From positions 1 to 20,896 of the forward strand of contig DDWF01000247.1 of assembly GCA_002345845.1 (NCBI GenBank): a DNA stretch of 20,896 nucleotides. The letters run 5' to 3'. Both the position numbers and the translations under genes were made by a program. The notes below the pieces were generated by a model. The model did not search any database. It was not told where the DNA came from and saw only the letters and a list, made by a program, of their open reading frames with translations. How positions within the stretch are numbered: position 1 is the stretch's first letter; the number at the start of each line of letters is the position of its first letter. Positions 2,991 through 20,896 of the stretch are shown here, piece by piece. This stretch comes from Betaproteobacteria bacterium UBA2293 (GTDB lineage Bacteria; Pseudomonadota; Gammaproteobacteria; Burkholderiales; Rhodocyclaceae).

Positions 2991-5768
2991 TTAGTGCAGC
3001 AGACTCATCGCCCGAGCTCTGGCCAGGGCCGCCGAACGGCTGGAAACGCCCAGCTTACGAAACAGGTTCTGCAGGTGCCACTTGATCGTGGTGAGCGAAA
3101 CGTGGGTACGGTCGGCCAATTGCTGGTTGGAGAGACCTGCATCGATCAGTCCCAGGAGCTCGATTTCGCGACGGGTCAGAGAACTAAGCAGACGTGATTC
3201 GCCGTGCAGGGCTTTCAGTTCGTCCGGCAACGCCGGCGCGCTGACCGGCAGACGCTGGCATATCTCACTGAAAAAGCGCTGCTCCTCCTGCAGCACGAAG
3301 CCGGCAGCAGTGATCTTCTTCTCCCGGACCAGGGCGGCGACGATTTCCGCATGGTCGTCGAAAGGCCGGAGGATACGGCGGGGCGCAGCGATGCCGATTG
3401 CTCGCGTCATGTGGCGTACGGCCATGTGCGGTTTGTCCGAACGTAGCGCCAGTGACGCCCGCGCTAGTTCAAGCTCCACCAGTGTGCCCATGCTGCCGCT
3501 GGCCTTGGCCTTGTTCGCCTCGTCGGTCAGTGCATTTTCCGCCTGAGCCAGCCGGCCACCGGCGACCAGCAAGTCGATCCTGGCGACATCGAGCAGTTCC
3601 TGCAGATGGGCGATGGAACTAGTCGGCGGCGTGGCGTTGGGCTGTCCCGAGGTATCGGTCACCAGCCCGATGCGGATGCCCTCGGCGATGGCCAGCTCCT
3701 TGCGGCCAAGAACGATCAGGCGGCGGATGAGGTAACAGGAAAGCATCAGTGACAGGCGTGGCGGATAGCAGGCTGCCGCCGTACGTAGCGCACCAGGGGC
3801 CAGCGGCTCGTCGCCTCCTCCCTGCCACAGCAGCAGGGCCGCCTCGACCCCGCAACAGGCGGCTTCCAGAAAGCCGTGGTTGCGCGAGGACTGGATGCCA
3901 ATCTGGATCAGTTGCCTCGCCTCGGTATCGAGCCCCATCTGGACGGCACACCTGGCACCGATCAGGGCCAGGGTGCCGGCCATGCCCGAGGTGTCGCCGA
4001 GGGAGGCCCGGGCCGAGGCCAGCGCGACCACCAACTCCGGATAGGCGCTGGCGTAGTCACCCTCGTAGACTGAGATCAGCGAGGCGTAGGCCGCCACCCA
4101 GCCATCCACATAGGCGCTGCCGGCCTGGAAGGCGGCTTCCCGCGCCGCCTGCAGGGCACGGCGCGCCGGCACGAAACGAAACTGGTTGGTGGAATAGCAG
4201 CTCTCGATACAGTACGCAGCGGCCAGGTTGAAGGCATCATCGCCCCCCTTGCCGGCCTCGGCCAACCATTCCTCGGCTCCCCGATGGGCGTCCTCAAGGC
4301 GATCCGTCAGGCTGTCGATGGAGGCACGCAGGATAGCGATCCGGCGTTGCAGCGCCGCCCGTTTCCCGGTATCGCCCGCGATGCCCGGCAGCCTTTGGAT
4401 GCGCTGCTCGAGTTCAACACTCTGCTGGCGGGCATATTCATAACGACGATGGAAGGACAGCGCCCAGGCGAACCAGTACTCCGCCTCCGGGCCGGCCTGG
4501 TGGCCGCCTTCGTGCAGGGTCTCGATCCACTTGATGTACTGCGGCAAATCGCCGTGGTCGCGGACAAAACCGGGAGCCGCCTGTTCCAGCACCTGGCAGG
4601 CGAACGGAATTTCGCCCGCCTCCAGTGCGTAATCGATGGCTTCGCGCCAGTAGCCGTTCTTTTCGCACCAGAGGGCGGCCCGCTGCAGCACCTCCTGGCG
4701 CCGTGCCTTGGTCAACACCCGTTCCGCCTCGTTCAGCAGGTATTCGCGGAACAGGCCGTGCAGGCGGTACCAGCTACGGTTGCGGTCGAGGGGGATGATG
4801 AAGACATTGCGCTGCAGTAGATAGGCGAGATCGTCCTTGGCCCGGTCGCTGCCGGTGGCGAAGCGGCAGAGATCGAGGCTGAAGGTGCGCAGTTGCCCGA
4901 TGCACAGCAGAAAATCCCGTACATCGGCCGGAAAGCCGGAGAGGACCTGACGGTTGAGCAGGTGCGCCAGCCCTTCGTCGGAACCGGAAAAACTGGCCAG
5001 CGACGCCAGTGGCTGCTGGGTGTTGCTCAGGATGATCTGGGCCATGCGTACCGCCGCCGGCCAGCCTTCGGTGTGGCGTGCGACCTCGGCCAGCCCCAGG
5101 GTGCCGATCCGCGTACATAGCTCGCTCCCCAGCAACCCGCCCACCTCTTCGAGGTTGAAGCTGAGTTCGGCCGTACCGATCTGGCGGATCAGCCCTTCCA
5201 GGCAGGCCCGGGATACGTTCAGCGGCAGTTCCTCGGTGCTGGAGAAAACGAACTGGACCGAGGGCCGGGTATGAAAGATGAGCTTGTCGAGCAGGGCACC
5301 GAGAGCTGGCTCCTTGCAGTAATTGAGATTGTCGATGAAGAGCGTGAGCGGGATCGGGTAATGATCGATGAGCTCGACCAGCGCGTCGATGCGCCGCTCG
5401 ATCGATTCGTTGCCGCGAAACAGGGCCTGGGTCGGGTGCTGTTCGAACTCGCGCTCGTCGAGCAATGCACCGAGGGCACTGACGATGCTCTCCGTCGTGC
5501 TGTCCCGCTCGTCCAGTCCGAACCACAGACATTGCTTGCCCAGGCGCCGCAGATCGGCCAGTAACATGGACATGAGTACCGTCTTGCCGTAGCCGACCGG
5601 CGCCACGATGGCGACGACCTTGCCGGCCAGCCCGGCACTGGTCTGAACACCATCGAGGATCTGCGTGCGCAGGGCCTGGAACATGAAAACCGGCGGATCC
5701 GTCCGCCCGATCTTGCGCTCCGCCTTGCTGTCCGCCGGGTCTGCATTCTGTTTTCGCCGCATCGCCAT
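2991..5768 (-). CDS. LuxR/MalT-type ATP-dependent transcriptional activator (LAL), copy 1
   Basis: This 925-aa protein belongs to the large ATP-binding LuxR (LAL/MalT) activators, which sense a ligand through a STAND-type ATPase and bind DNA through a C-terminal helix-turn-helix. Walker A is APVGYGKT (residues 56-63) and a Walker B-like FIDN ends at D146. A long helical TPR-like middle region (roughly 350-830) follows, then the LuxR HTH at 864-925 (LTRREIELLGLIDAGLSNQQ onward). The ATG at 5768 follows AGGGG at short spacing. It is a clear paralogue of the regulator at 14887-17637, with matching blocks such as HPTQAL, FIDNLNYC, TEGWPAAVRMAQIIL, RNVFIIPLDRN and YRLHGLFRE. It probably activates catabolic operons of this region in response to a pathway metabolite or its CoA ester. 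Confidence 0.93.
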   Translation of the reverse strand: MAMRRKQNADPADSKAERKIGRTDPPVFMFQALRTQILDGVQTSAGLAGKVVAIVAPVGYGKTVLMSMLLADLRRLGKQCLWFGLDERDSTTESIVSALGALLDEREFEQHPTQALFRGNESIERRIDALVELIDHYPIPLTLFIDNLNYCKEPALGALLDKLIFHTRPSVQFVFSSTEELPLNVSRACLEGLIRQIGTAELSFNLEEVGGLLGSELCTRIGTLGLAEVARHTEGWPAAVRMAQIILSNTQQPLASLASFSGSDEGLAHLLNRQVLSGFPADVRDFLLCIGQLRTFSLDLCRFATGSDRAKDDLAYLLQRNVFIIPLDRNRSWYRLHGLFREYLLNEAERVLTKARRQEVLQRAALWCEKNGYWREAIDYALEAGEIPFACQVLEQAAPGFVRDHGDLPQYIKWIETLHEGGHQAGPEAEYWFAWALSFHRRYEYARQQSVELEQRIQRLPGIAGDTGKRAALQRRIAILRASIDSLTDRLEDAHRGAEEWLAEAGKGGDDAFNLAAAYCIESCYSTNQFRFVPARRALQAAREAAFQAGSAYVDGWVAAYASLISVYEGDYASAYPELVVALASARASLGDTSGMAGTLALIGARCAVQMGLDTEARQLIQIGIQSSRNHGFLEAACCGVEAALLLWQGGGDEPLAPGALRTAAACYPPRLSLMLSCYLIRRLIVLGRKELAIAEGIRIGLVTDTSGQPNATPPTSSIAHLQELLDVARIDLLVAGGRLAQAENALTDEANKAKASGSMGTLVELELARASLALRSDKPHMAVRHMTRAIGIAAPRRILRPFDDHAEIVAALVREKKITAAGFVLQEEQRFFSEICQRLPVSAPALPDELKALHGESRLLSSLTRREIELLGLIDAGLSNQQLADRTHVSLTTIKWHLQNLFRKLGVSSRSAALARARAMSLLH

Positions 5769-5966: not shown

Positions 5967-6413
5967 TCATGCCATCAGACTTCCTGGTGCGAAGCGTCTG
6001 AAAGCGGCCTCAATCAGCTCCAGCAGGCCGTCGAACTGCTCCCGCCAGGCGTAGCCCACTTCTGGAGTCCATGCTTCGCCGGCAATTTCACGCAGCGTTT
6101 CTTCCAGACTCTCGAACATCGCCGGGAACATGGACATACTTACTCCGTAGGCAACATGATCTGCTGCCCAGCTAACGATAATCTCCGGATTGGCACGGCC
6201 TTCCGCATATTCCATGATCTGAACGATAAGGCGCGACAGCATGTCCCCTTTCAGTTCATCGCAATCATCGTTTCCAAACAGTGCGCGCGCATCCGGCTGC
6301 CGGGCGAAATAACGAGCATATACGGCCGGCGTGAGGTCTGAAATACGCTCGGCAATATGCTCCAGGCTTGAATGGATCAGGGCGGCATTGGCGTTGTGCA
6401 GGACGTATGTCAT
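5967..6413 (-). CDS. Single-domain globin (haemoglobin-like protein)
   Basis: This 148-aa protein fits the bacterial globin fold. F46 in ALFGNDD is the CD1 phenylalanine, H86 in WAADHVAYGV is the likely proximal haem ligand, and AWTPEVGYAWREQFDGLLELI matches the flavohaemoglobin/Vitreoscilla-type G-H helices. No FAD or NAD domain follows, so any reduction needs a separate reductase. By ungapped alignment the distal E7 position is K55 rather than the usual Gln or His, which is uncertain. I chose the ATG at 6413 because the upstream extension has low-complexity, non-globin character. The ribosome binding site is weak (GAAAGAAAG). Possible roles are oxygen delivery to the oxygenase step or NO handling; neither is proven. 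Confidence 0.8.
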   Translation of the reverse strand: MTYVLHNANAALIHSSLEHIAERISDLTPAVYARYFARQPDARALFGNDDCDELKGDMLSRLIVQIMEYAEGRANPEIIVSWAADHVAYGVSMSMFPAMFESLEETLREIAGEAWTPEVGYAWREQFDGLLELIEAAFRRFAPGSLMA

Positions 6414-6544
6414 TGCTTTCTTTCGAGTTGATGCGGCTTGTCGAAGTAGCTCGAAATTTTGCGCGATCCCGCTGAAAGCAATACTGACCAAAAGAACGGT
6501 TTTTGAGCCCCCCCGCCACCAGCCACTCCTGCCGGGCAGAGGCA

Positions 6545-7456
6545 CTACCTGCCGAACAGTTTCAGCAGTCGGAGATTGAATCTCGCATCTTCCTTGATAC
6601 CGGTCCTGATCGAAACGTCCTGTCCGTAAGAAATGAGAAGCTGGATATCCTTGTCAAGGAAATGTCCAACCGTGAACAGTACCTTGGTCAGGCTCTGCCG
6701 GTCATTCTGTGCAACTCCGTCTACGCGCGTTTCACCGCCGGTGATATGGGAAACCATGCCGCCAACGAAGGTTCCGGCACTGAGAAAATAGCGGAGATGT
6801 GTCTGCAGCTCCCATAGCGGGCGCTGAGTCAGCGTCGTACCGTCCACACCAAAATTGCGGTTGGCGCTGTGGAACTGTACGTCGCCGACCAATTCCAGGG
6901 AGATGCTCTCACTCACCTTCCAGTTGCGGCCAACCTGGAAAGCCAATTTCCAGCGGTTCTCGGCGAACGGATTCAGCGCGTTGTCCGCGTTGTAATTTCC
7001 CGTAGGCAACCATAGCCAGGGCGAGATGGAAAAGGCGTTGCGGCCACTCGGATCCTTGATGAAGTGCAAGGGGAACACCAGTAGCAGATCACCGATGCCG
7101 TTGGTGGCTTCCTGCCCAGCCAGTTCCCCTCCGGTGCGAGCTCGCCCAATCGGGACGAGAAACTGCGGCACAACAGCATGGTCGTCGCCCCAATCGCGGT
7201 ACCAGACACCACGGAGCATGGTCAGATCGACAGACAATTTGGCATCGCCGGAGACTTTTCGACCCTTGGCGTAAAGATCGCGCCCGCCAAAATGCTGCTG
7301 ATAGACAACCCCCAGCGTGCTGCCGTGGGGCATGTATGCATAATCACCACCGTCGACGGTCACGGCTTGGACAGACCCTGCCAAGGTAGCAACCAGGCCG
7401 GCAAACAAGCCTTTGAGGAGACGTCTCTGGGGCAGCCTGGACAGGGCTTTTTGCAT
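6545..7456 (-). CDS. Outer-membrane transporter-like protein, MetA-pathway/phenol-degradation family
   Basis: This 303-aa predicted beta-barrel resembles the 'MetA-pathway of phenol degradation' outer-membrane family, often found in hydrocarbon, aromatic and steroid degradation clusters and thought to help hydrophobic substrates cross the outer membrane. A signal peptide covers residues 1-31 (positively charged start, LLKGLFAGLVATLAGS core, VQA cleavage site). Amphipathic strands with many aromatic residues follow, and the sequence ends LLKLFGR. The ATG at 7456 has a GGAG site 9 nt upstream and gives a proper signal peptide; the in-frame ATG at 7534 would add an odd arginine-rich leader. It diverges from the MarR gene and precedes the globin gene on the same strand. 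Confidence 0.78.
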   Translation of the reverse strand: MQKALSRLPQRRLLKGLFAGLVATLAGSVQAVTVDGGDYAYMPHGSTLGVVYQQHFGGRDLYAKGRKVSGDAKLSVDLTMLRGVWYRDWGDDHAVVPQFLVPIGRARTGGELAGQEATNGIGDLLLVFPLHFIKDPSGRNAFSISPWLWLPTGNYNADNALNPFAENRWKLAFQVGRNWKVSESISLELVGDVQFHSANRNFGVDGTTLTQRPLWELQTHLRYFLSAGTFVGGMVSHITGGETRVDGVAQNDRQSLTKVLFTVGHFLDKDIQLLISYGQDVSIRTGIKEDARFNLRLLKLFGR

Positions 7457-7539
7457 TCGGTAACGCTCCATTGGTAACCGGAAGTGAAATCGACCGGCCA
7501 TGGCTGGCAGCGTCCGTCGATTCATGGCTTGCACATTTG

Positions 7540-7588: not shown

Positions 7589-8116
7589 ATGCACGGCAAA
7601 CTAAAACTCACCTCGGTCTCTCGCAGTACGCCGGCAATGGCGACAGCTCTGCCCGATCTGCCCATGCCGGAAACCGTCATGGTTCGCCTGCTGCGAATCG
7701 CCATCTCGAGCATGACCGATTATTTCGAACCGGTTTTTCGCAAAATCGGCCTGAGCGAAAACGCCTTCCACGTGCTTTGCCTGCTGATAGCCAACGACAC
7801 CGGCAGCGCCTCGCCCAGTGAGTTGAGCGAGTTAGTCGGAACAAGCCGGGCCAACATGACGCGCATCCTTGAGCGACTGGTACAGGAGGGGCTGGTCTCC
7901 CGAGAGTTCGAGACGCGGGATGCACGCCGGCATCTGATCCAGGTAACAGCCAAGGGACGGCAGTTCACCATGAGTAACGTTCCAAATCTGGCCGAACCGC
8001 TTCGGCATGCCTTTTCCGACCTGACGCCCGACGAGTTCGCAATGCTGGGCACCTTGCTGCGCAAGGCCATCCTGTCCTTCGACAAGGGCGCCAGGCCAGA
8101 GCCAGGAAATAACTAA
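7589..8116 (+). CDS. MarR-family transcriptional regulator
   Basis: This protein (175 aa from the first ATG) has the MarR winged helix-turn-helix. Helices at about residues 76-98 (SPSELSELVGTSRANMTRIL) precede a wing (GLVSREFETRDARRHLIQVT) and a C-terminal dimerisation helix. MarR proteins are usually repressors released by small phenolic or hydrophobic ligands or acyl-CoAs. No start has a convincing ribosome binding site. The ATG at 7589 is the longest; ATGs at 7637 and 7679 are alternatives, and the first 30 residues are outside the conserved domain. It diverges from the outer-membrane protein gene and is followed by the membrane and oxidase-subunit operon, either of which it may control. 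Confidence 0.88.
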   Translation: MHGKLKLTSVSRSTPAMATALPDLPMPETVMVRLLRIAISSMTDYFEPVFRKIGLSENAFHVLCLLIANDTGSASPSELSELVGTSRANMTRILERLVQEGLVSREFETRDARRHLIQVTAKGRQFTMSNVPNLAEPLRHAFSDLTPDEFAMLGTLLRKAILSFDKGARPEPGNN

Positions 8117-8121
8117 ACACC

Positions 8122-8140
8122 GCCCTTCCGGGCTTTCATT
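8122..8140 (+). terminator. Short hairpin with T-rich tail after marR
   Basis: GCCC (8122-8125), a TTCC loop and GGGC (8130-8133) are followed by TTTCATT. The 4-bp stem is short, so it may be a weak terminator or attenuator between marR and the downstream membrane-protein operon. Confidence 0.35.
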
Positions 8141-8169
8141 GAAGCGTATCAATAAGAGGAGCAATCTAC

Positions 8170-8919
8170 ATGGACGAAAAAACCAGTCTGAAATTTCAAC
8201 TGATCAGCGCTTGGTGCGGCCCTGCCTTCCTGATTACCTTCGTCGTGTTCTGGGGCGTGATCGGACAGAACCTGCCGAATCCATCACCCGACCTCAGCGC
8301 TACCGACCTGGCCGCACGCTACATCGCCAACTTGAACGACATTCGGCTCGGCTTCATCATGTCGCTGATCATCATCGTCTTCTATATGCCCTGGTCGGCC
8401 CTACTCGCTGCCCAGATGGCTCGCATCGAAGGAAAGTTCCCGGTGATGGCCTATTTGCAGTTGCTGGGTGGCGGACTGACGGTGATGGTGGTTTCCTTCA
8501 GCGCATTTTTCTGGGTCACTGCCGCGTTCCGGCCGGAACGCGATCCGGTATTGATCCAGTTGCTAACCGACCTGGGGTGGCTTTGTATCGATCTGCAATA
8601 CGCCTGCACCACGCTGCAGATGGTTGCTGCAGCGATGGTGGGCCTCGCCGAGCGGAGCAAAACCCCACTGTTTCCGCGCTGGGCTTGTTTCCTGACAATC
8701 TGGTGCGGTTTGAGCTTCCTGCCGGCAAGCCTGACCGGCGTGCTCAAGACTGGCCCGTTTGCTTGGGATGGCATGCTCAGTTACTACATCCCCTATTTCT
8801 GCTGGCTGTGCTGGTTCACCGTGGCCAGCCTATACATGATCAAGGATGTCCGCCGCCGCATGCGCGAGAGCGATGCACAGGGCGACACGATGGCAGTGAC
8901 ACACGGAGCAACCGCCTAA
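8170..8919 (+). CDS. Multipass inner-membrane protein of unknown function
   Basis: This 249-aa protein has about six hydrophobic spans, near residues 11-31, 59-80, 92-117, 135-158, 170-190 and 202-224, and a short charged C-terminal tail. I do not recognise the family and see no catalytic signature. Aromatic and cysteine residues are frequent in the last spans (YYIPYFCWLCWF). The start is fixed by AGAGGAG about 7 nt upstream. It heads a plus-strand run with oxidase-subunit-III- and IV-like proteins and may be part of the same membrane assembly. An intercistronic hairpin (8949-8962) separates it from the next gene. Confidence 0.85.
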   Translation: MDEKTSLKFQLISAWCGPAFLITFVVFWGVIGQNLPNPSPDLSATDLAARYIANLNDIRLGFIMSLIIIVFYMPWSALLAAQMARIEGKFPVMAYLQLLGGGLTVMVVSFSAFFWVTAAFRPERDPVLIQLLTDLGWLCIDLQYACTTLQMVAAAMVGLAERSKTPLFPRWACFLTIWCGLSFLPASLTGVLKTGPFAWDGMLSYYIPYFCWLCWFTVASLYMIKDVRRRMRESDAQGDTMAVTHGATA

Positions 8920-8948
8920 AGACGTGTCAAAGGCATATCGAGGAGCAG

Positions 8949-8962
8949 CCCGCCCCGGCGGG
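8949..8962 (+). promoter_or_regulatory. Intercistronic GC-rich hairpin
   Basis: CCCGCC-CC-GGCGGG is a perfect inverted repeat just after the membrane-protein gene and 26 bp before the next start codon. It is followed by ATTTCT, not a T-run. It could protect the upstream message from 3' degradation or reduce read-through. Confidence 0.35.
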
Positions 8963-8988
8963 ATTTCTGCGAGCACCGAGGAAACCCC

Positions 8989-9576
8989 ATGAGCACCACG
9001 CAGGTCATTCCACCCCCCCTTGCTAGGCACCTTCCCGGCGACCGGGATGTCTGGATATTCATCTTTGCTGAACTTCTCATGTTCGGTGCCTTCTTCGTTG
9101 CCTATCTCGTTCACCGGCAGACATCGGTGGACTTGTACAACGCCTCGCAACAGACACTAGACCGCGACCTGGGAGTGATAAATACGATCTTCCTGATCAC
9201 GAGTTCATGGCTGGCAGTATCTGCGGTCGCATCGGCACGCGCCAACCGAAGTCGGGAAATTGTCAGCCGTCTGGCGGGTGCCATCACCTTGGCTCTGGCC
9301 TTCATCGTGGTCAAGTACTTTGAGTACACGACCAAGTTTGCGGAAGGCATCAACCTGACAACCAATGACTTCTACATGTTCTATTTCGCCTTGACGATGA
9401 TCCATCTGGCTCATGTCATGGCCGGAACGGTAATCCTGAGCGTGCTCTTGCTCAATGCCAAGGAAGAAAAATATCACCGTCAGAATCTGTCGGGCCTTGA
9501 GGCTGGAACCGCCTACTGGCATCTGGTTGATCTCCTGTGGATATTCCTGTTCCCCTTGTTGTATTTACTGAGATAA
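8989..9576 (+). CDS. Cytochrome c oxidase subunit III family protein, NorE-like
   Basis: This 195-aa membrane protein matches the short five-helix subunit III type (NorE/CoxC-like). Its start is HLPGDRDVWIFIFAELLMFGAFFVAYL. It also has the conserved FYMFYFALTMIHLAHVMAG stretch and ends AGTAYWHLVDLLWIFLFPLLYLL. NorE proteins are accessory to cytochrome c-dependent nitric oxide reductase or related haem-copper oxidases and do not carry the catalytic site. GAGGA lies about 6 nt before the ATG. The next gene is a NorF/subunit IV-like protein 3 bp downstream, the usual pairing. No catalytic subunit (NorB or CoxA) is in the window, so the partner enzyme is unknown. Confidence 0.88.
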   Translation: MSTTQVIPPPLARHLPGDRDVWIFIFAELLMFGAFFVAYLVHRQTSVDLYNASQQTLDRDLGVINTIFLITSSWLAVSAVASARANRSREIVSRLAGAITLALAFIVVKYFEYTTKFAEGINLTTNDFYMFYFALTMIHLAHVMAGTVILSVLLLNAKEEKYHRQNLSGLEAGTAYWHLVDLLWIFLFPLLYLLR

Positions 9577-12937: not shown

Positions 12938-12954
12938 AGGAGGCCGCGCCTCCT
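12938..12954 (+). promoter_or_regulatory. 5' leader hairpin carrying an AGGAGG sequence before the acyl-CoA dehydrogenase
   Basis: AGGAGGC-CGC-GCCTCCT is a perfect 7-bp inverted repeat ending 19 bp before the ATG. One arm contains AGGAGG, an ideal Shine-Dalgarno sequence, but it is paired and too far upstream. The working site is GGAG at 12965-12968. The hairpin may tune translation or be fortuitous. Confidence 0.35.
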
Positions 12955-12973
12955 GCCCATTAACGGAGACCCC

Positions 12974-14119
12974 ATGCTGCCGCACCGCCCGATCTACGAA
13001 CACGAACACAATCTTTTCCGCGATACCGTGCGGCGCTTCGCCGCCGAGGAAATCACCCCTCATTTCGCCTCATGGGAACAGGCCGGCGTCGTCAATCGGG
13101 ACTATTGGGCCAAGGGTGGCGCCACCGGCCTCCTCTGCCCGCTCGTACCCGAAACCTACGGTGGTATCGGCGCCGACTTTCGCTTCAACGCGGTCGTACT
13201 GGAAGAACTCTGGTACGCCGGCTTTGCCGGCCCGGCCGCCGATTTTTCCGTGCATAGCGACGTCTGCTGCGGTTATATGCTGTCCTACGGCAGCGAGGAA
13301 CAGAAGCGGAAATGGTTGCCGCGCATGGTTTCCGGCGAGACCATCTGCGCCATCGCCATGACCGAACCGGGTACTGGCAGCGACCTGCGCGGCATACGTA
13401 CCAAGGCTTTGCGTGATGGCGACGAGTACGTCATCAACGGCCAGAAGACCTTCATCTCCAATGGCCAGATGTGCGACCTTGTCATCGTCGTCACCCGCAC
13501 CGCCCGCGAGGAAGGTTCGCAAAGCTTCAGCCTGATTCTGGTCGAAACCGACCGCCCCGGCTTCCGCCGCGGCCGCAACCTGGACAAGCTCGGCCACCAC
13601 TCGGCCGATACGTCGGAGATGTTTTTCGACGATGTTCGCGTGCCAGTCGGCAATTTACTCGGCACAGAAGGCAGGGCCATGGCCCAACTGATGAGCGAAC
13701 TGCCGCAGGAGCGGCTGACCATCGCCATCCAGTCGCTCGCTTCGGCACAGAAAGCCTTCGACATCACCTGCGATTACGTCAAGGAACGCACGGCCTTCGG
13801 CAAACCGATCGGCGACATGCAGAACACCCGTTTCAAGCTGGCCGATCTCAAGGCCGACCTGGCCGTCGGCTGGTCCTTCATCGACCAGTGCCTAGCCAAA
13901 CACGTAGAAGGCAAGCTGGACAGCACTGATGCCTCGATCGCCAAACTGTGGATTACCGAGATGCATGGCCGCCTGGTCGACCAATGCCTGCAGTTCTTCG
14001 GTGGCTACGGTTTTATGCGCGAGTACGAAATCTGTCGCCTCTTTGCCGACGCCCGGGTGCTGCGCATCTACGGCGGCACTTCGGAAATCATGCGCGAACT
14101 CGTCTCGCGCAGCCTCTGA
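12974..14119 (+). CDS. Acyl-CoA dehydrogenase, long-chain (LCAD) type
   Basis: This 381-aa flavoenzyme introduces the alpha,beta double bond into acyl-CoA using FAD. The N-terminal helical domain is followed by AIAMTEPGTGSDLRGIRTKA and the NGQKTFISNG strand (middle domain). The C-terminal domain has RTAFGKPIGDMQNTRFKLAD, FFGGYGFMREYEICRLFADARV and RIYGGTSEIMREL. The catalytic glutamate is not at the usual YEGT position, which here reads YGGT. It is most likely E246 in ELPQER, as in long-chain acyl-CoA dehydrogenase. Length is normal. GGAG lies 5 nt upstream of the ATG. It is convergent with the DUF2889 gene and may act on the CoA ester formed after P450 oxidation. Confidence 0.95.
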   Translation: MLPHRPIYEHEHNLFRDTVRRFAAEEITPHFASWEQAGVVNRDYWAKGGATGLLCPLVPETYGGIGADFRFNAVVLEELWYAGFAGPAADFSVHSDVCCGYMLSYGSEEQKRKWLPRMVSGETICAIAMTEPGTGSDLRGIRTKALRDGDEYVINGQKTFISNGQMCDLVIVVTRTAREEGSQSFSLILVETDRPGFRRGRNLDKLGHHSADTSEMFFDDVRVPVGNLLGTEGRAMAQLMSELPQERLTIAIQSLASAQKAFDITCDYVKERTAFGKPIGDMQNTRFKLADLKADLAVGWSFIDQCLAKHVEGKLDSTDASIAKLWITEMHGRLVDQCLQFFGGYGFMREYEICRLFADARVLRIYGGTSEIMRELVSRSL

Positions 14120-14136
14120 GGCCGGCTTCTACCGGG

Positions 14137-14697
14137 CTAATCCTGCTGCTGGAAACGTTGCGGATTGCTGCGCACGATCTCGCCGTCGCGGCGCAGCGCG
14201 TGGCAACCGTCGACCGGCGACGGGGTTTTCAGGCTGGCGGCAAAGCGGCCGTCCTTGCCCTTGGCCTGGGGATCGCCCCACAGTGCCTGATAAGCCGTGG
14301 TGGCAATCGGCGCCAACAATTCGGTCAGGTGCGAACAACCGGCAACGCCGCGGAACAGCGATTTAACGTGACGCACGAAGCCGCGGCCTATCTGCAGACC
14401 GATCAACTGCCGGTAGCTGTCGCCGATGGCGCCGCAGATGCCGTACGGCGCATGCATCGTCCGGGCGCGCACGTCCCGGATCGTCAGGCCACGATCCACT
14501 GTCAGGCACAGGAGCATTTCATGGATCGCCGCGCCGGGCGCCAGCGCCCCACGCTCCGACAACTCCAGCGGAAACGGCTTGCTGTCGACCAGATGCCCTT
14601 CAATATCGAGCAGGCCGTCCGCACGTTCATAGGCGGTGCAACTGATGTGGCGCGTATGAACCAGGCGCCGGTTGCCAACGGGCAGGCCGGCGTTCAT
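14137..14697 (-). CDS. DUF2889 domain-containing protein
   Basis: This 186-aa soluble protein matches DUF2889, a family of unknown function often seen in steroid and other CoA-dependent catabolic clusters. Typical parts are TRHISCTAYERADGLLDIEGHLVD near the N-terminus, the central GAAIHEMLLCLTVDRGLTIRDV, and the C-terminal CHALRRDGEIVR near residues 164-175. No cofactor motif is evident; the conserved His, Cys and Asp residues could form an enzymatic site. I chose the ATG at 14697 because it overlaps the stop of an upstream reading frame (ATGA) that has a strong ribosome binding site. A TTG at 14742 is an unsupported alternative. It is convergent with the acyl-CoA dehydrogenase and downstream of regulator copy 2. 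Confidence 0.82.
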   Translation of the reverse strand: MNAGLPVGNRRLVHTRHISCTAYERADGLLDIEGHLVDSKPFPLELSERGALAPGAAIHEMLLCLTVDRGLTIRDVRARTMHAPYGICGAIGDSYRQLIGLQIGRGFVRHVKSLFRGVAGCSHLTELLAPIATTAYQALWGDPQAKGKDGRFAASLKTPSPVDGCHALRRDGEIVRSNPQRFQQQD

Positions 14698-14765
14698 GGC
14701 AGAACCGGAAAGCGGCGCCCCGAATCGGCCGAAACACGGCAAGCGAACAGTGCGTTATGGATCAT
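14694..14765 (-). CDS. 23-codon upstream ORF, translationally coupled to the DUF2889 gene
   Basis: An ATG at 14765 preceded by AGGAG (14774-14778) with 8 nt spacing opens a 23-codon frame starting MIHNALFACRV. Its TGA overlaps the DUF2889 ATG in the arrangement ATGA. The DUF2889 start has no ribosome binding site of its own, so ribosomes ending this frame probably re-initiate there. The peptide has no recognisable family and may matter only through the act of translation. If a sequencing error or frameshift were present, the frame could instead be an N-terminal extension of the DUF2889 protein. Confidence 0.45.
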   Translation of the reverse strand: MIHNALFACRVSADSGRRFPVLP

Positions 14766-14886
14766 TACAGGATCTCCTGCCAGATGGGGAGCGGCTTAAC
14801 CGGGCGAGCGCGCCGCGAACACGAGGCGCCGGTACGAAATACACGACATTCAGTATGCTAGCACACCACAAGCAGTCAGTATCCGT

Positions 14887-17637
14887 TCAGGGCAACAGGT
14901 TCAGCACCCGCGCCCTGGCCAATGCCGCCGAACGGCTCGACACCCCCAGCTTGGCGTAAAGCTTCTGCAAATGCCCCTTGATGGTGGTTACCGTGACATT
15001 GATGCGGTCGGCCAACTGCTGGTTGGTCAAGCCTGCGGCGAGCAGGCCGAGCAGCTCCATTTGCCGCGCGGTCAGCGTTTCGAGCAATTGCGAGTCCATG
15101 TTCAGCGCGACCAGTTTTTCTTGCAACTGCGGATTGCTGATCGGCAGCTCGCGGCAGATACTGGCGAAAAATTTTCGCTCGACCTCCAGGGCAAATCCCC
15201 AGGCCGACGGCTTGGTGTCTTCGACCAGGTCGGCAATCGCCCCGGCACGGTCGCGGAACGGGCGGACGATGCCGCGTCGTGCGGCAAGAGTCACGGCCCG
15301 GGTCAGATGGCGATTGGCGGCCGCTACGTTGTGCGCCTGACCGGCGATCACCGCTTCGCTCAGCGCTAGTTCGACCAGCCGTGCGGCACGGCCGTCGGCC
15401 TTGGCCAGCCGGATTTCCTGGGCAATCAGTTGTTCAGCGCGCTTATGCCGCCCGAGGGCAATGCACAACTCGATTTCGGTGGCCGCAAACAGATCGCGAC
15501 AACGGGCGACGTCGGCCCATTCGGGCAGGCCTCCCGACCGCTCCGGCTCGTCGGCACGCAGTCCGAGGCGAGCCGCCTCCATCTCCGCCTCGTCGAGCCG
15601 GCCCAGCCGGATCAGGCGCTGGACCAGATAGCAGTTGAGCATGAATGACAGGCGCGGCGGATAACAGGCGGCGAAATCACGCAACTCGCGCAGGGAAATC
15701 GCATCGCGATCCTGCCCGTTCCACAACTTGATCGCGGCATCGAGGCCGCAGGCTGCCGCATCGACGAAACCGTGAAACTTGGATAGGCGCAATGCAGGCA
15801 CCAGCAGCCGCTCGGCTTCCTGATCAAACCCCATGTCGACGGCGGCAGCGGCGGCGATCAAGGCGATTGTCCCGCCAATACCGGCATTCTCACCCAAGGC
15901 CTGGCGGGCCGCGGCCTGAGCCGTCATCAGTTCTTGATAGACGCTGGCCGAGTCGCCCTCAAGCAGCGTGATCAGTCCGTTGAGTGCGGCAATCCAGCCA
16001 TCGGTATAGGCCCCCTTGATTTGGAAGGCCGCTCCCTGAGCCCCCTGCAGGGCAAGCCGGGCATCGCGCAACTGGTAAGCACTGATATGGTAAATGCCTT
16101 TGGTACAGTCTGCCGCCGTGGCATTGAACGGGTCATCCGAGCCGCCGCAGGCCAGCCAGTGGCTGGCATTGCGAAAGGCTTCTTCAAGATGATCGGTGAA
16201 GATGCCAACGCAGGCACTGATGATATCCACCCGGCGCTGAAAGTCCTCGATCCGCGCCGGATCTTCCGTGTCTCGACCCAAGCGGACCCATTCCGCCAGC
16301 CGCTCGTTCTGCTGCCGGCCCTGCTCGTAACGGCGGTTGAGCACCAGCGCCCAGGTGTACCAGTACTCCGCCTCCCAATCGAGTTGCAGTCCGCGGGTAT
16401 GCAGCGCCTCGACCCAGTCGATGTACTGCATCAGGTCGCCGCGGTCGCCGACGAAGGTCTGCGCGGTATGTTCGAGAATCTTCGCCGCCGTCGTGATGTC
16501 GCCGGCAGCGATGGCGTAATCGATGGCATCGCGCCAATAGCCACCCTGTTCACACCACGCCGCTGCCCGTTGCAGAACCGCTTGCTGGCGATATGGATCG
16601 AGCGAAAACCGGGACTCGCCGAGCAGAAACTCGCGAAATAGACCATGCAGCCGATACCAGGTCCGATTGCGATCGAGCGGAATGATGAACACGTTGCGGC
16701 GCAGCAGCAGGCCCAAATACTGCTCCGCCTCGGCGTTGCCGGTCGCATGACGGCAAAGCTCGCTGCTGAAGGTACGCAGATGGGCGATGCTCAGCAGGAA
16801 TTGCCGGATCTCATAGGGAAAGCCGGACAGCACCTGCTGATTGAGCAACGCCGCGATATCCTCGTCTGATCCGGAGAAGCGCTCCAGTGCCTCGAGCGGC
16901 CGGTCAGTCGCCGAGAGGATGATCTGGGCCATGCGCACCGCCGCCGGCCAGCCCTCGGTCTGCCGCTGCACTGTCTCGACGCCGGCCGAACCGATAGCGG
17001 CAGACAGGTCGGCGCCGAGCATTTCGCCGACTTCGCCGGCATCGAGGCTCAGTTCGCGGTAGCCGACCTGGCGGACCAGCCCGGCCAGCTTGGCGCGCGC
17101 CAGGCTGAACGGCAACTCCGCCATGCTGGAAAAAACGAAGCGAACCGTCGGCGGCGTCTTGAAGACCAGAGCTTCCAGGAATTCACCAACAGCCGTATCA
17201 GCACAGTAATTCAGGTTGTCGATGAAGACTGTGAAGGGCGCGCCGAAATCCACTGCCGCCTTGATCAGGGCCTCGATCCGGCCATAGACGGGCAGGTCGC
17301 CGCGCAACAGGGCCTGCGTCGGATGCAGGCCGATGCTCGGCCCGTAGGCCATTTCCTCAAGCAGGCCGAGAAGGCGTTCGAGACTGGTGTCGCGTTCGTC
17401 CAGGGCGGCCCAGAAACACTGCTCGCCGCAGTCCTGCAGTTGAGCGCACAGGCTGGCCATAAGCACCGTCTTGCCATAGCCGACCGGCGCGACAACGCTG
17501 ACCAGTTTGTGGCGGATGCCGTCCCGGCCGAGCAGGTCATCCAGCACCGGCGTCCGCACTGGCTGGAACATGAATTCCGGCGGATCGGTGTTCCGGACGC
17601 TGCGCTCCTGAATCTTGGCGGCCGGCATGGCCATCAT
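14887..17637 (-). CDS. LuxR/MalT-type ATP-dependent transcriptional activator (LAL), copy 2
   Basis: This 916-aa LAL regulator has Walker A APVGYGKT (residues 50-57), a Walker B-like FIDN ending near D140, a long TPR-like helical sensor region, and a LuxR helix-turn-helix at 855-916 (LTARQMELLGLLAAGLTNQQ onward). It is paralogous to the regulator at 2991-5768, with a near-identical recognition region (NQQLADR, TTIK-HLQ, KLGVSSRSAALARAR). The two may therefore recognise overlapping DNA sites while the sensor parts differ. I chose the ATG at 17637, which aligns the N-terminus with copy 1; upstream GTG or TTG codons would extend it. It diverges from the P450 operon across a 310-bp region and is the obvious candidate for its activator. 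Confidence 0.92.
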   Translation of the reverse strand: MMAMPAAKIQERSVRNTDPPEFMFQPVRTPVLDDLLGRDGIRHKLVSVVAPVGYGKTVLMASLCAQLQDCGEQCFWAALDERDTSLERLLGLLEEMAYGPSIGLHPTQALLRGDLPVYGRIEALIKAAVDFGAPFTVFIDNLNYCADTAVGEFLEALVFKTPPTVRFVFSSMAELPFSLARAKLAGLVRQVGYRELSLDAGEVGEMLGADLSAAIGSAGVETVQRQTEGWPAAVRMAQIILSATDRPLEALERFSGSDEDIAALLNQQVLSGFPYEIRQFLLSIAHLRTFSSELCRHATGNAEAEQYLGLLLRRNVFIIPLDRNRTWYRLHGLFREFLLGESRFSLDPYRQQAVLQRAAAWCEQGGYWRDAIDYAIAAGDITTAAKILEHTAQTFVGDRGDLMQYIDWVEALHTRGLQLDWEAEYWYTWALVLNRRYEQGRQQNERLAEWVRLGRDTEDPARIEDFQRRVDIISACVGIFTDHLEEAFRNASHWLACGGSDDPFNATAADCTKGIYHISAYQLRDARLALQGAQGAAFQIKGAYTDGWIAALNGLITLLEGDSASVYQELMTAQAAARQALGENAGIGGTIALIAAAAAVDMGFDQEAERLLVPALRLSKFHGFVDAAACGLDAAIKLWNGQDRDAISLRELRDFAACYPPRLSFMLNCYLVQRLIRLGRLDEAEMEAARLGLRADEPERSGGLPEWADVARCRDLFAATEIELCIALGRHKRAEQLIAQEIRLAKADGRAARLVELALSEAVIAGQAHNVAAANRHLTRAVTLAARRGIVRPFRDRAGAIADLVEDTKPSAWGFALEVERKFFASICRELPISNPQLQEKLVALNMDSQLLETLTARQMELLGLLAAGLTNQQLADRINVTVTTIKGHLQKLYAKLGVSSRSAALARARVLNLLP

Positions 17638-17947
17638 TGCGTAGTTCACCAGCCGCCCCCGTGCCTGTCGTAACAACTCGAAACGTTCAACAACGCTGCT
17701 CCTTCAAATGGTTCACTGCTTTCAAGCGATACAAATGCGAGCCTGCGGAGGACAAACGAACAAGCCATCGGCACTAGCTGCAGCGGCATGTCCGGTTGCC
17801 GCAAAACAGTACTTTAGTACTACTTAAGGGCAAATGCAGCTACCTATACTCAATTCCCAGAGAGTTGACGGCATCCGCCTGTCGCTTTTGCCAGCCACAC
17901 CCGAAGGCCGGACTGGCGCATAGACCATTATTAAGAGGAGACGTTTC
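17638..17947. promoter_or_regulatory. Divergent promoter region between LAL regulator and P450 operon
   Basis: This 310-bp interval holds no gene I can support. It contains a perfect dyad, AGTACT-TT-AGTACT (17808-17821), and a TATACT -10 candidate at 17845-17850. The P450 ribosome binding site AGAGGAG (about 17934-17940) is at the right end. If transcription starts about 7 bp after the -10, the dyad centre falls near -42, the place expected for a LuxR-type class II activator. The start site is predicted, not measured. Confidence 0.55.
17808..17821. promoter_or_regulatory. Perfect AGTACT dyad, candidate LAL-activator site of the P450 operon
   Basis: Two copies of AGTACT, each palindromic, are separated by TT, giving a perfect 14-bp inverted repeat. 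The sequence TTTAGTACTAC (17813-17823) recurs at 1081-1091 just upstream of the phosphotransferase gene, next to a TATACT box. The pairing of a shared motif with two paralogous regulators suggests a regulon, but an 11-bp match can arise by chance. Confidence 0.45.
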
Positions 17948-19231
17948 ATGAGTGATCTCAAAATCCCCACCGAGTTGGTTGCCCCCATCTTCAATCCCGC
18001 CAGCTACGCCGATCGCCAGCGGATGGAGGATATGCTCGCCAACCTGCGCCACAACTACCCCCTATCGCAGGCGGAAGTCCCCGGTTACGACCCGCACTGG
18101 ATCATCACCAAGTACAAGGATGTCCGCGAAATCACCCGCCAGGACAACATCTTCCACAGCGGCGACCGCTCCAAGACGCCGGCCTCGCTGATCGCCGAGC
18201 AGATGATGCGCGACTATAGCGGCGGCAAACCGCACATCTTCCGCACCTTGGTACACATGGACCCGCCGGACCATACGGCGCACCGCGACCTGGTTAAGGA
18301 TGCCTTCATGCCGCAGAACATCGCAGCACTCGAGACAACGATCCGCGAGATGGCCCGCCGCTATGTCGACCAGATGGCCGGCATGGACTCGACCTGTGAT
18401 TTCGCCGGCGACATTGCCATGAACTACCCCCTCGAAGTGGTATGCACGCTGATTGGCCTGCCCAAGGAAGACCACGCGATCATGCTCCGCCTAACCCAGT
18501 GGTTCCTCAGCTACGCCGACCCCGACCTGTGCCGCCCCGGTTCGGTGCTGACCGACCCCGAGGAGCAGATCAAGACCTGGCAGATCGTCTATGACGAGTT
18601 CAAGAGCTACTACAGCTCGGTGATCAAGGATCGCCAGGCCTGCCCGCGCCACGATCTGGCCAGCACCATCTCCAACGGCAAGATCAACGGCTGCCCGATG
18701 GACGAACGCTCAATGATTTCCTATTTCGTCATCGCCTCTACCGCCGGCCACGACACGACGGCCGCCACCATCGCCAACTCAATGTGGACGCTGGCCACCA
18801 AGCCTGAACTCCTCGCCCGCCTCAAGGCCGAACCGGCGCTGATTCCCAATTTCGTTGAGGAAGCCATCCGGTGGACGACGCCGGCCATGTGCTTCATTCG
18901 CTCCGCCGCCGAGGATTACGAACTGTCCGGCCGTCAGATCAAGAAGGGTGACCTGCTCTACATCTCCTATCTCTCCGCCAACCGTGATGAGGAAATGTTC
19001 GAGGACCCCTATGAGTTCCGGCTCGACCGCACACCGAACCGCCACATCGGCTTCGGCTATGGCGCGCACATCTGCGTCGGGCAGCATCTTGCCCGCCTCG
19101 AAATGCGCCTGCTCTGGGAGGAACTGATTCCCCGCCTCGAATCGGTCGAGATGGCCGGTGAAGGCAAATGGCAGGAGTCTGAATTCGTCTGCGGGCCGAA
19201 GTACGTACCTATCCGCTTCAAGATGAAGTGA
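17948..19231 (+). CDS. Cytochrome P450, CYP108-like (class I)
   Basis: This 427-aa soluble bacterial P450 monooxygenase inserts one oxygen atom from O2 into its substrate. The I-helix oxygen-activation motif is AGHDTT (A266-T271), the K-helix ExxR is EEAIR, and the haem-binding loop is FGYGAHICVGQHLAR with thiolate ligand C376. C-terminal features (SANRDEEMFEDPYEF, NRHIGFG, VCGPKYVPIRF) resemble CYP108/P450terp, which oxidises alpha-terpineol at a methyl group, so a terpenoid or other hydrophobic substrate is plausible. No membrane anchor is seen. AGAGGAG lies about 7 nt upstream of the ATG. It leads an operon with rubredoxin, ferredoxin reductase and ferredoxin, which would supply its electrons. 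Confidence 0.95.
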   Translation: MSDLKIPTELVAPIFNPASYADRQRMEDMLANLRHNYPLSQAEVPGYDPHWIITKYKDVREITRQDNIFHSGDRSKTPASLIAEQMMRDYSGGKPHIFRTLVHMDPPDHTAHRDLVKDAFMPQNIAALETTIREMARRYVDQMAGMDSTCDFAGDIAMNYPLEVVCTLIGLPKEDHAIMLRLTQWFLSYADPDLCRPGSVLTDPEEQIKTWQIVYDEFKSYYSSVIKDRQACPRHDLASTISNGKINGCPMDERSMISYFVIASTAGHDTTAATIANSMWTLATKPELLARLKAEPALIPNFVEEAIRWTTPAMCFIRSAAEDYELSGRQIKKGDLLYISYLSANRDEEMFEDPYEFRLDRTPNRHIGFGYGAHICVGQHLARLEMRLLWEELIPRLESVEMAGEGKWQESEFVCGPKYVPIRFKMK

Positions 19232-19244
19232 AGAGGAATTTCAT

Positions 19245-19424
19245 ATGAGCACAACCCCCTACCGCAAATGGCAATGCCTGGCCTGTGGCGACATCTACGA
19301 CGAGGCTCTGGGCAGTCCACCAGACGGCATCCCGGCCGGCACCCGTTTCGAGGCGCTGCCGGATGACTGGATGTGTCCCAACTGCGGCGCCCTGAAGGCC
19401 TCCTTCGTGCCGATGGATGACTGA
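19245..19424 (+). CDS. Rubredoxin
   Basis: This 59-aa iron-sulfur protein is a one-electron carrier with a single iron bound by four cysteines, here C11, C14, C44 and C47, in CLACG and CPNCG. The spacer has the classic rubredoxin pattern (DEALGSPPDGIPAGTRFEALPDDWMCP). GAGGA precedes the ATG by 9 nt, and the gene starts 13 bp after the P450 stop, so it belongs to the P450 operon. Rubredoxins usually serve AlkB-type alkane hydroxylases; here one sits between a P450 and its ferredoxin reductase. It may be an alternative donor to the P450, or serve a hydroxylase outside the window. Confidence 0.95.
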   Translation: MSTTPYRKWQCLACGDIYDEALGSPPDGIPAGTRFEALPDDWMCPNCGALKASFVPMDD

Positions 19425-19430
19425 CCGCCA

Positions 19431-19469
19431 GGCAATGACGGCGCGAGGCCAGCCTGCGCCGTCATTGCC
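19431..19469 (+). promoter_or_regulatory. Long intercistronic hairpin between rubredoxin and ferredoxin reductase
   Basis: GGCAATGACGGCGC (19431-19444) pairs perfectly with GCGCCGTCATTGCC (19456-19469). Inner bases AGGC and GCCT extend the stem after a one-base bulge. No T-run follows, so it is not a standard terminator. It probably separates message stability of the P450-rubredoxin part from the reductase-ferredoxin part, or partly blocks read-through. Confidence 0.7.
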
Positions 19470-19495
19470 AATCTACCCCCGGAGAACAACACCCC

Positions 19496-20725
19496 ATGAA
19501 TCAACAGAACCGCGAACACGTGGTCGTCATCGGCGCCGGTCACGGCGGCGGCCTGACCGTCGCCTTCCTGCGCCAATACGGCTTTGCCGGCGACATCACC
19601 CTGATTGGCGATGAAACCGTCCTGCCCTACCAGCGACCGCCGCTATCGAAGGCCTGGCTGAAGGGCGAGGTCACCCAGGAAAGCCTGGCCCTGCGCCCCC
19701 CTGCCTTCTACCTTGAACAGAAAATCGACCTGCATCTCGGCGTCCGCGCCGCACGCATCGATGTTGATGCCGGTCACGTCGTCCTCGCCAGCGGCCAGGA
19801 GATCCCATACGACCATCTGGTTTTGGCCACCGGTGCGCACGCCCGCACCCTGCCCATTCCCGGCGTGCATTTCACCAACGTGATGACGCTGCGCACCCTG
19901 GTCGATGCAGAACACATCCGCGGCGCCCTCGGACCGGGCAAGAAACTGGTCATCATCGGCGGCGGCTACGTCGGCCTCGAATGCGCTGCCACGGCACGCG
20001 CCCTGGGCGCAGAAGTCACCGTACTCGAACGCGCACCGCGACTGCTCGAACGCGTCGCCAGCGCCCCGGTTTCCGCCTTCCTGCAGCGCTTCCACGAAAA
20101 CCAGGGCGTGGCCTTCCGGCTCAACGCCGGCATCGAAGCCATTCTCGGCAACACCCAGGCCGAGTCGGTGCTGCTCAGCGATGGCACCGAGTTGTCATGC
20201 GATGCCGTGCTGGTCGGCGTCGGCGCCATGCCGACTGCCTCGATGGCCCAGGCGATCGGCCTGCGCTGCGACGACGGCATTCTGGTCGATGCCGATTGCC
20301 GCAGTTCCGATCCGCACATCTTCGCCATCGGCGACGTCGCCAAGCGGCCTCATCCGCTGTACGACCGCGTGCTGCGACTCGAAAGCGTGCCGAGTTGCAT
20401 GGAACAGGCCAAGCGGGTAGCCGCCTGCATTACCGGACGCGAACCGGCCGCGGCCGAAGTGCCGTGGTTCTGGTCGGACCAGTACGATCTCAAGCTGCAG
20501 ATCGCCGGTCTGCCATTCGCGGTCGACGAAACCGTCGTTCGCGGCAACCCGGATGAAGCCAAGTTCGCCGTTTTTCACCTGAGCACCGGAAAGGTGGTCA
20601 CCGTCGAGGCGATCAACGCCCCGCCCGAGTTCTTTGCCGGCAAAAAGCTGATCGCCTCCGGAAAGCCGGTCCCACGCGAAAAGCTCGCCGATACGACCAT
20701 TCCCCTCAACGAGTTGGCGGCATAG
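19496..20725 (+). CDS. FAD-dependent NAD(P)H:ferredoxin reductase of the P450 system
   Basis: This 409-aa flavoprotein belongs to the putidaredoxin-/terpredoxin-reductase family. It passes electrons from NAD(P)H to a [2Fe-2S] ferredoxin, and possibly to the neighbouring rubredoxin. The FAD-binding motif is GAGHGG (residues 13-18), ATG is at 111-113, the NADH-binding Rossmann motif is GGGYVG (155-160) followed by ER at 178-179, and the second FAD contact is IFAIGDVA around D280. Length is normal. GGAG lies 11 nt upstream of the ATG, a slightly long spacing. The E-R pair at the end of the second beta strand favours NADH. It lies between rubredoxin and ferredoxin in one operon. Confidence 0.93.
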   Translation: MNQQNREHVVVIGAGHGGGLTVAFLRQYGFAGDITLIGDETVLPYQRPPLSKAWLKGEVTQESLALRPPAFYLEQKIDLHLGVRAARIDVDAGHVVLASGQEIPYDHLVLATGAHARTLPIPGVHFTNVMTLRTLVDAEHIRGALGPGKKLVIIGGGYVGLECAATARALGAEVTVLERAPRLLERVASAPVSAFLQRFHENQGVAFRLNAGIEAILGNTQAESVLLSDGTELSCDAVLVGVGAMPTASMAQAIGLRCDDGILVDADCRSSDPHIFAIGDVAKRPHPLYDRVLRLESVPSCMEQAKRVAACITGREPAAAEVPWFWSDQYDLKLQIAGLPFAVDETVVRGNPDEAKFAVFHLSTGKVVTVEAINAPPEFFAGKKLIASGKPVPREKLADTTIPLNELAA

Positions 20726-20755
20726 GCCAGCCTTTCACCCCACACCGAGGCTCTC

Positions 20756-20896
20756 ATGATCAAGGTCACCTTCATCGAACATGGCGGCACGCCCCACACC
20801 ATCGACATTCCGGAAGGGATGTCTCTGATGCAGGCGGCGGTCAATCACAACATTCCGGGCATCGATGCCGACTGCGGCGGCTCCATGACCTGCGGC
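20756..20896 (+). CDS. [2Fe-2S] ferredoxin, 3' end cut by window edge
   Basis: Forty-seven codons are visible of an expected ~105. The start MIKVTFIEHGGTPHTIDIPE and the cluster loop DADCGGSMTCG (C40 and C46 of the C-x5-C-x2-C pattern) mark an adrenodoxin/putidaredoxin-type ferredoxin that carries electrons from the reductase to the P450. The third and fourth cysteines lie beyond the right edge. GAGG precedes the ATG by about 7 nt. It follows the reductase by 30 bp and completes a class I P450 redox chain. Confidence 0.92.
   Translation, partial: MIKVTFIEHGGTPHTIDIPEGMSLMQAAVNHNIPGIDADCGGSMTCG

Follow-up and report, generated by a model that had tools for sequence, protein, structure and literature searches.

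Which protein supplies electrons to a cytochrome P450 when two different carriers are encoded beside it? Ignorance of the redox partner often hinders the use of orphan bacterial P450s, and the question is raised here by a 20,896-nt stretch of DNA from Betaproteobacteria bacterium UBA2293 (contig DDWF01000247.1), hereafter called the window. It ends in a putative operon for a CYP108-like P450, a rubredoxin, a putidaredoxin-reductase-like FAD reductase (FdR), and a [2Fe-2S] ferredoxin. The usual client of rubredoxin is the hydroxylase AlkB. According to section 9 of PMC8918992, bacterial P450s usually use a ferredoxin and a ferredoxin reductase. Based on comparisons of related loci, we propose that the rubredoxin is probably a dedicated one-electron carrier of the window P450.

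Gene content of the operon

The preliminary description of this DNA had reported a P450, a 59-aa rubredoxin with four cysteines, a reductase, and a ferredoxin in one operon, and we recovered all four genes where it had placed them (Table 1). The P450 belongs to PF00067 (101.6 bits). The closest solved structures are P450terp, which we take to be CYP108A1, followed by p450tol (E 7.3e-99) and 3tkt (E 3.4e-95). Since P450terp outranks the CYP124, CYP125, and CYP153 chains, we call the protein CYP108-like, a label based on this ranking.

The rubredoxin begins 13 nt after the P450 stop codon and is preceded by AGAGGA. It covers the whole PF00301 model (positions 1-47 of 47, with a score far above the cut-off of 23 bits), and its cysteines at residues 11, 14, 44, and 47 form two CxxC knuckles, CLAC and CPNC. 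The top solved match is ‘rubredoxin 2’ (2v3b); 7a9a, presumably the structure of RubB from Mycobacterium tuberculosis, is also among the best matches. Ratios of nonsynonymous to synonymous substitution rates (dN/dS) of 0.04, 0.14, and 0.30 between the window gene and its homologs at loci L001, L002, and L018, respectively, indicate purifying selection. Electron-competent rubredoxins of the AlkG2 type have no extra arginine following the second knuckle, and by eye the window protein has none either; it reads CPNCGALKASF in this region versus CPDCAVREKPDF in the AlkB-linked loci L134/L139.

FdR contains the Pyr_redox_2 and Reductase_C domains and is much closer to putidaredoxin reductase than to the rubredoxin reductase of Pseudomonas aeruginosa (2v3a, E 7.5e-22). 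The 47 ferredoxin residues encoded in the window score slightly below the Pfam cut-off. In L001 the ferredoxin is intact (106 aa, Fer2 39 bits), and its nearest structures are 3hui, ferredoxin VI, terpredoxin, and putidaredoxin. The class I gene set of a FAD reductase and a vertebrate/putidaredoxin-type ferredoxin is therefore present beside the P450, with the ferredoxin complete only in L001.

Table 1. Positions of the operon genes and associated features in the window
Feature	Position	Strand	Evidence
CYP108-like cytochrome P450, 427 aa	17948..19231	+	PF00067; P450terp 1cpt E 2.7e-114
Rubredoxin, 59 aa, four cysteines	19245..19424	+	PF00301 73.4 bits; 2v3b E 1e-20; 3' of P450 in 7/10 close relatives
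RNA hairpin between rubredoxin and FdR	19431..19469	+	-34.4 kcal/mol, z -6.2, 0/200 shuffles
Putidaredoxin-reductase-like FAD reductase (FdR), 409 aa	19496..20725	+	PF07992 + PF14759; 1q1r E 3.5e-100
[2Fe-2S] ferredoxin, N-terminal 47 residues (truncated at the window end)	20756..20896	+	weak Fer2; whole in L001 12821-13141
Divergent MalT-like LuxR-type regulator (929 aa), likely controlling the operon	14887..17676	-	GerE, TPR_MalT, MalT model
Acyl-CoA dehydrogenase, possible pathway gene	12974..14119	+	Pfam; homolog 3' of operon in L006 and L018

Conservation in close relatives

A scan of genome contigs yielded 21 loci, ten of them close (63-99% identity). The nearest relative is the metagenome-assembled genome (MAG) HGW-Betaproteobacteria-12 (L001), which is 94.3% identical over window positions 12949-20896 and contains the complete operon. 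Rubredoxin is encoded 3' of the P450 in seven close relatives (L001, L002, L003, L005, L006, L007, and L018). FdR is the next gene in six of them, including L003 and L005, whose contigs stop inside it; in L007 it was not seen, the contig ending about 1.3 kb past the rubredoxin. Thus rubredoxin is kept in all six loci that keep FdR. The ferredoxin was seen in L001, L002, L006, and L018. No rubredoxin was present in the DNA examined around the P450s of L004, L008, and L009. We considered L008 and L009 as rubredoxin-linked and rejected this assignment, since the linked P450s of their genomes (G008 and G009) are other genes on other contigs (C437 and C9; loci L060 and L061).

The rubredoxins of L003 (2151-2306) and L005 (3494-3670) were missed by a strict motif and recovered by a loosened one. 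They have CLNC or CTGC rather than CPxC as the second knuckle, with all four cysteines intact. The relatives include Denitromonas ohlonensis and Thauera terpenica 58Eu, the latter described on oxygen-containing monoterpenes, judging by a reference title in PMC4097962.

Distribution of P450-rubredoxin pairs in genome surveys

We surveyed 296 genomes from the order of G005 (Novosphingobium by its record title), termed here sphingomonad-type. Rubredoxin matches number 28 and are spread over 23 genomes; 26 are full length. A P450 lies directly 5' on the same strand for 14 of these 26, or for 12 of 24 when G005, which had been chosen for its P450, is left out of the count. The 14 pairs are spread over 11 genomes, all without any further rubredoxin match. 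The other 12 full-length rubredoxins comprise seven domains within long frames, two genes in one AlkB locus, two divergent copies in longer frames, and one standing alone. The seven long frames (L076, L077, L078, L082, L083, L084, and L099; 455-498 aa) include six with a FAD/NAD motif and are likely rubredoxin-reductase fusions.

The counts differ considerably between orders. In the order of G001, the nearest relative of the window, none of 60 sampled rubredoxin regions (about every second of the first ~119 rows) shows a P450, the upstream side being unseen in L203, whose contig begins 149 nt before the rubredoxin. The order of G007 has 2 P450-linked rubredoxins of 13, in the previously known G007 and G008, and none in the other nine, while in the order of G004 there are 4 of 22 full-length rubredoxins, two in G004 itself and two of the other 20. 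Some lineages thus show a strong association, and others a weak one or none. Across all pairs, the distance from the P450 haem motif to the first rubredoxin cysteine is 196-342 nt.

Viewed from the P450 side, the 296 genomes have at least 120 CYP108-like places (a lower bound, since no more than five candidates per genome were scored), and by coordinates a rubredoxin adjoins 11 of them. Ten of these 11 fall within the 15 best-scoring places, and none is below rank 33. In view of this survey and of the close relatives, the refuting condition set in the preliminary description, a lack of the rubredoxin at other CYP108-like loci, does not hold. P450-rubredoxin fusions were not found, PF00301 being present in none of the 120 P450 homologs examined out of 3026 matches.

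The pairing extends to other P450 families. The P450s of L057 and of a Sphingopyxis macrogoltabida 203N plasmid (L141) are 65% alike and CYP153-like (CYP153D17, E 2.3e-134), those of L085 and L101 are CYP101-like (CYP101J2, E 1.6e-91, with P450cam second), and L059 represents a fourth kind paired with a rubredoxin. P450s on plasmids of Paraburkholderia sprentiae (45% identical to L085) and Massilia putida (56% in its best piece) each have a rubredoxin directly 3'. On the Massilia putida plasmid (L149, 1303-4354), the CYP101-like P450 and rubredoxin are followed by a [2Fe-2S] ferredoxin, and by its predicted gene content this locus is a further two-carrier arrangement, here with a different P450 family. 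The P450 is annotated as a short gene, its similarity being split into pieces in two frames; the stretch shows no FdR, and the gene after the ferredoxin reads as a hydrolase/SDR-like frame.

Altogether, we hand-picked 15 plasmid stretches from 60 of 134 records. A P450 adjoins the rubredoxin in five (L140, L141, L145, L146, and L149) and an alkane 1-monooxygenase accompanies it in six (L143, L144, L147, L148, L150, and L151); L152 and L153 have neither by annotation, and no P450 was found in the unannotated L142 and L154. In the Streptomyces goshikiensis plasmid (L146, 2522-3962) the rubredoxin comes first, between desaturase/acyl-carrier genes and the P450, and it may serve the desaturase.

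Phylogeny and order of assembly

P450 trees were built from 52 and 49 sequences, L024 being removed from the second for its long branch. Distant P450s (L010-L017 and L019-L021, 27-32% identity) were left out, and repeat copies (L022, L052, L058, L062-L074, and rubredoxin-centred loci of the same places) were not entered as extra rows. One CYP108-like clade of 27 comprises 23 P450s linked to rubredoxin and four unlinked. When seven members ascertained through their rubredoxins (L056, L060, L061, L093, L117, L122, and L140) are set aside, 16 of 20 are linked. The linkage label needs at most six changes on the P450 trees, versus means of at least 14 after shuffling. The unlinked members L004, L008, L009, and L023 sit in genomes G004, G008, G009, and G359, each of which holds a pair elsewhere (L056 and L057; L060; L061; L075, respectively), so that they may share a rubredoxin in trans.

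FdR beside the pair is confined to one sub-clade of seven (support 100/99), of which six have both rubredoxin and FdR and one, L004, lacks rubredoxin, FdR, and ferredoxin. On this sampling the pair looks older, because these FdR-bearing loci lie within a clade in which the P450-rubredoxin pair alone is the usual arrangement; FdR and ferredoxin are predicted to be later additions, though gains versus losses are not certain. The view in the preliminary description of a class I operon that received a rubredoxin therefore looks inverted.

On the rubredoxin tree, which has 70 rows and 55 columns and is weakly resolved, four changes suffice for the P450-linked label, versus a mean of 22.5 and a minimum of 18 in 200 shuffles. 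P450 and rubredoxin identities are correlated (r 0.72 for 23 CYP108-like pairs and r 0.58 for all 28; none of 2000 permutations as high), which could be explained by shared inheritance alone.

Other redox genes in loci and genomes

We searched the 14 pairs outside the FdR sub-clade (L056, L057, L059, L060, L061, L063-L070, and L075; 6-14 kb each) with the window FdR and ferredoxin. None of the 14 has a ferredoxin beside it and 13 have no FdR; in L067 a 30% FdR-like match lies ~3 kb off on the opposite strand. A motif search found no ferredoxin within ~1.5 kb of the unlinked CYP108-like survey loci either. As a neighboring ferredoxin is usually absent even there, the rubredoxin is the special feature of the linked loci. 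Only the P450 is a constant neighbor of the rubredoxin. FdR, ferredoxin, downstream genes, and regulators vary, the last being MalT-like in the window, MerR-like in L056 and L060 (by eye), and TetR in Novosphingobium sp. EMRT-2. In the latter strain and in Sphingopyxis macrogoltabida 203N, the annotation shows no redox gene except the rubredoxin immediately next to the P450.

The ten sphingomonad-type genomes with pairs other than G005 each encode one putidaredoxin-reductase-like enzyme elsewhere (39-42% identity). In G001, G002, G003, G006, and G010 the operon copy is the sole such match at E 1e-40, and these genomes have one or two P450 matches each. Few P450s and no other reductase of this kind would account for FdR being carried along in the operon. 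AlkB was detected (E 1e-10) in none of the 11 sphingomonad-type genomes with pairs and in none of the six genomes with an FdR-bearing locus (G001, G002, G003, G005, G006, and G010, mostly incomplete MAGs; G005 is counted in both sets). The earlier idea that the rubredoxin supports a second hydroxylase thus finds no backing in these six genomes, and many P450-rubredoxin pairs stand alone.

Proposed role of the rubredoxin

Relatives that keep only a rubredoxin beside the P450 suggest that it is probably that P450's own electron carrier. With no AlkB detected in the key genomes, the simplest role for the rubredoxin is to donate electrons to the P450, AlkB being the one rubredoxin client that was searched for. 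In the proposed scheme, NAD(P)H would reduce FdR, as expected for its family, and FdR would pass electrons to the rubredoxin, either directly or via the [2Fe-2S] ferredoxin. The reduced rubredoxin would then dock on the P450 and supply electrons for oxygen activation. Likeness to P450terp and the presence of acyl-CoA and aldehyde dehydrogenase genes in L006 and L018 suggest that the substrate is perhaps an isoprenoid or alkyl compound. FdR and ferredoxin were probably recruited to the pair where the host had few P450s and lacked another reductase of this type; in other hosts a separately encoded reductase would serve it.

Several observations weigh against this proposal. The P450 of L004 is 78% identical to that of the window and has no rubredoxin, 109 of the 120 CYP108-like survey places likewise lack a neighboring one, and the support of the clade of 27 (90/89) is below the tool's star. 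FdR is near putidaredoxin reductase and far from rubredoxin reductase, and the complete-looking FdR-ferredoxin pair of the operon could serve the P450 alone. Given the resemblance of FdR to putidaredoxin reductase, a route through the ferredoxin to either rubredoxin or P450 is no less possible than transfer from FdR to rubredoxin, and one reductase may feed both carriers. Finally, rubredoxin potentials usually lie above those of P450 ferredoxins, so the first electron would be uphill.

The same potentials would fit a division of labor, in which the first electron comes from the ferredoxin and the second from the rubredoxin, or the rubredoxin acts instead as an effector of the oxy complex. Retention of rubredoxin in all six FdR-bearing loci and the rubredoxin-ferredoxin combination in Massilia putida also agree with two carriers having different jobs. 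However, judged by neighboring genes alone, pairs without ferredoxin or FdR are commoner, and the Massilia stretch shows no FdR; we regard such a division as unlikely.

It is equally doubtful that the rubredoxin merely shares a promoter with the P450 and serves another enzyme, such as an AlkB-type hydroxylase, a desaturase, or an oxygen/peroxide reductase. The AlkB-serving rubredoxins in six plasmid stretches and the Streptomyces goshikiensis gene among desaturase genes are precedents for it; the AlkB searches of the key genomes and the constancy of the P450, amid changing regulators and downstream genes, speak against it. A regulatory, redox-sensing, or iron/haem-handling role, or a relic with no part in turnover, is less probable still: the altered second knuckles of L003 and L005 could point that way, but their four cysteines are kept, and the gene is under purifying selection and retained across deep divergence. 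Despite the small share of CYP108-like places with a rubredoxin (11 of 120), the adjacency is not chance, an explanation hardly compatible with 14 of 26 versus 0 of 60 rubredoxins, the spacing of 196-342 nt in every pair, and the several P450 families involved.

A dedicated P450 carrier can be extended into a bolder proposal, which we put forward only as a long shot: rubredoxin-linked P450s would form a redox-partner class that has gone unrecognised and that arose in three or more P450 families, with the ferredoxin of two-carrier operons giving the first electron and the higher-potential rubredoxin the second. If the small gene immediately downstream serves the whole clade of CYP108-like P450s, and some CYP101- and CYP153-like ones, many orphan P450s would gain a predicted donor that is simple to produce and test. 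An operon with both carriers offers a direct way to ask whether a P450 can take its first and second electrons from different proteins.

Comparison with known systems

Rubredoxin-to-P450 transfer is not new. According to PMC11133467, citing Sushko et al. 2021, RubB of M. tuberculosis shuttles electrons from FprA and FdR to CYP124, CYP125, and CYP142 in vitro. RubB thus resembles the proposed window protein as a carrier between flavoprotein reductases and P450s. In that account, however, its interactions are called transient and not highly specific, whereas here the gene is paired with one P450 and tracks its phylogeny. In early P450cam work, rubredoxin was reportedly able to replace putidaredoxin as effector, although our literature search for this found nothing. 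The novelty seems to lie in the dedicated pair, in how widely it occurs, and in the operon with two carriers. Dedicated P450-rubredoxin gene pairs were not found described in the literature searched, which leaves out most subscription journals and includes PMC8918992, PMC6850023, PMC11133467, PMC10818417, PMC7284936, PMC13204472, and PMC4097962.

The P450terp system shares with the window the closest solved P450, a putidaredoxin-reductase-like FdR, and a ferredoxin akin to terpredoxin and putidaredoxin. It differs in that the window has a rubredoxin between P450 and FdR, and to our knowledge no rubredoxin belongs to the terp system. AlkB operons are similar in having an oxygenase followed by a rubredoxin, in the aldehyde dehydrogenase found in L057 and on several AlkB plasmids, and in some cases in a LuxR-type regulator. 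In contrast, the window oxygenase is a haem P450 rather than a diiron AlkB, AlkB is missing from the key genomes, and the reductase is putidaredoxin-reductase-like. The CYP153 region of Sphingomonas sp. AR_OL41, as far as described in PMC10818417, has a P450 (‘putative cytochrome P450’ in that paper), ferredoxin, and FdR near an alkB-rub1-rub2 cluster, so that all these components share one region. There, however, the rubredoxins are part of the alkB cluster, with a transposase gene in between, while the window rubredoxin directly follows its P450.

Intergenic hairpin and neighboring genes

The 71-nt gap between rubredoxin and FdR contains a near-perfect hairpin with no T run behind it. Homologous gaps are more stable than shuffled sequences in five of seven cases (z -2.2 or lower), among them L001, L002, L006, and L018, and the folding gaps of the relatives differ in sequence. 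Those of L003 and L005 do not fold beyond shuffles (z +0.9 and +1.2), so a folding gap is not universal. The hairpin possibly sets expression of P450 and rubredoxin above that of FdR and ferredoxin.

MalT-like matches adjoin the P450 in L001-L006 and L018. In L006 and L018, an aldehyde dehydrogenase follows the acyl-CoA dehydrogenase homolog. A second large MalT-like LuxR-type regulator, judged by eye from its translation, lies at window positions 2991-5768 (minus strand), giving two such regulators in 21 kb. A globin domain protein (5967-6545, minus strand) neighbors an outer-membrane Phenol_MetA_deg-type protein (6545-7534). A MarR regulator, a membrane protein without a Pfam match, and a COX3-like protein are encoded in series at 7589-9576; by eye, a similar MarR gene occurs near the L006 pair and two similar membrane proteins near the L057 pair.

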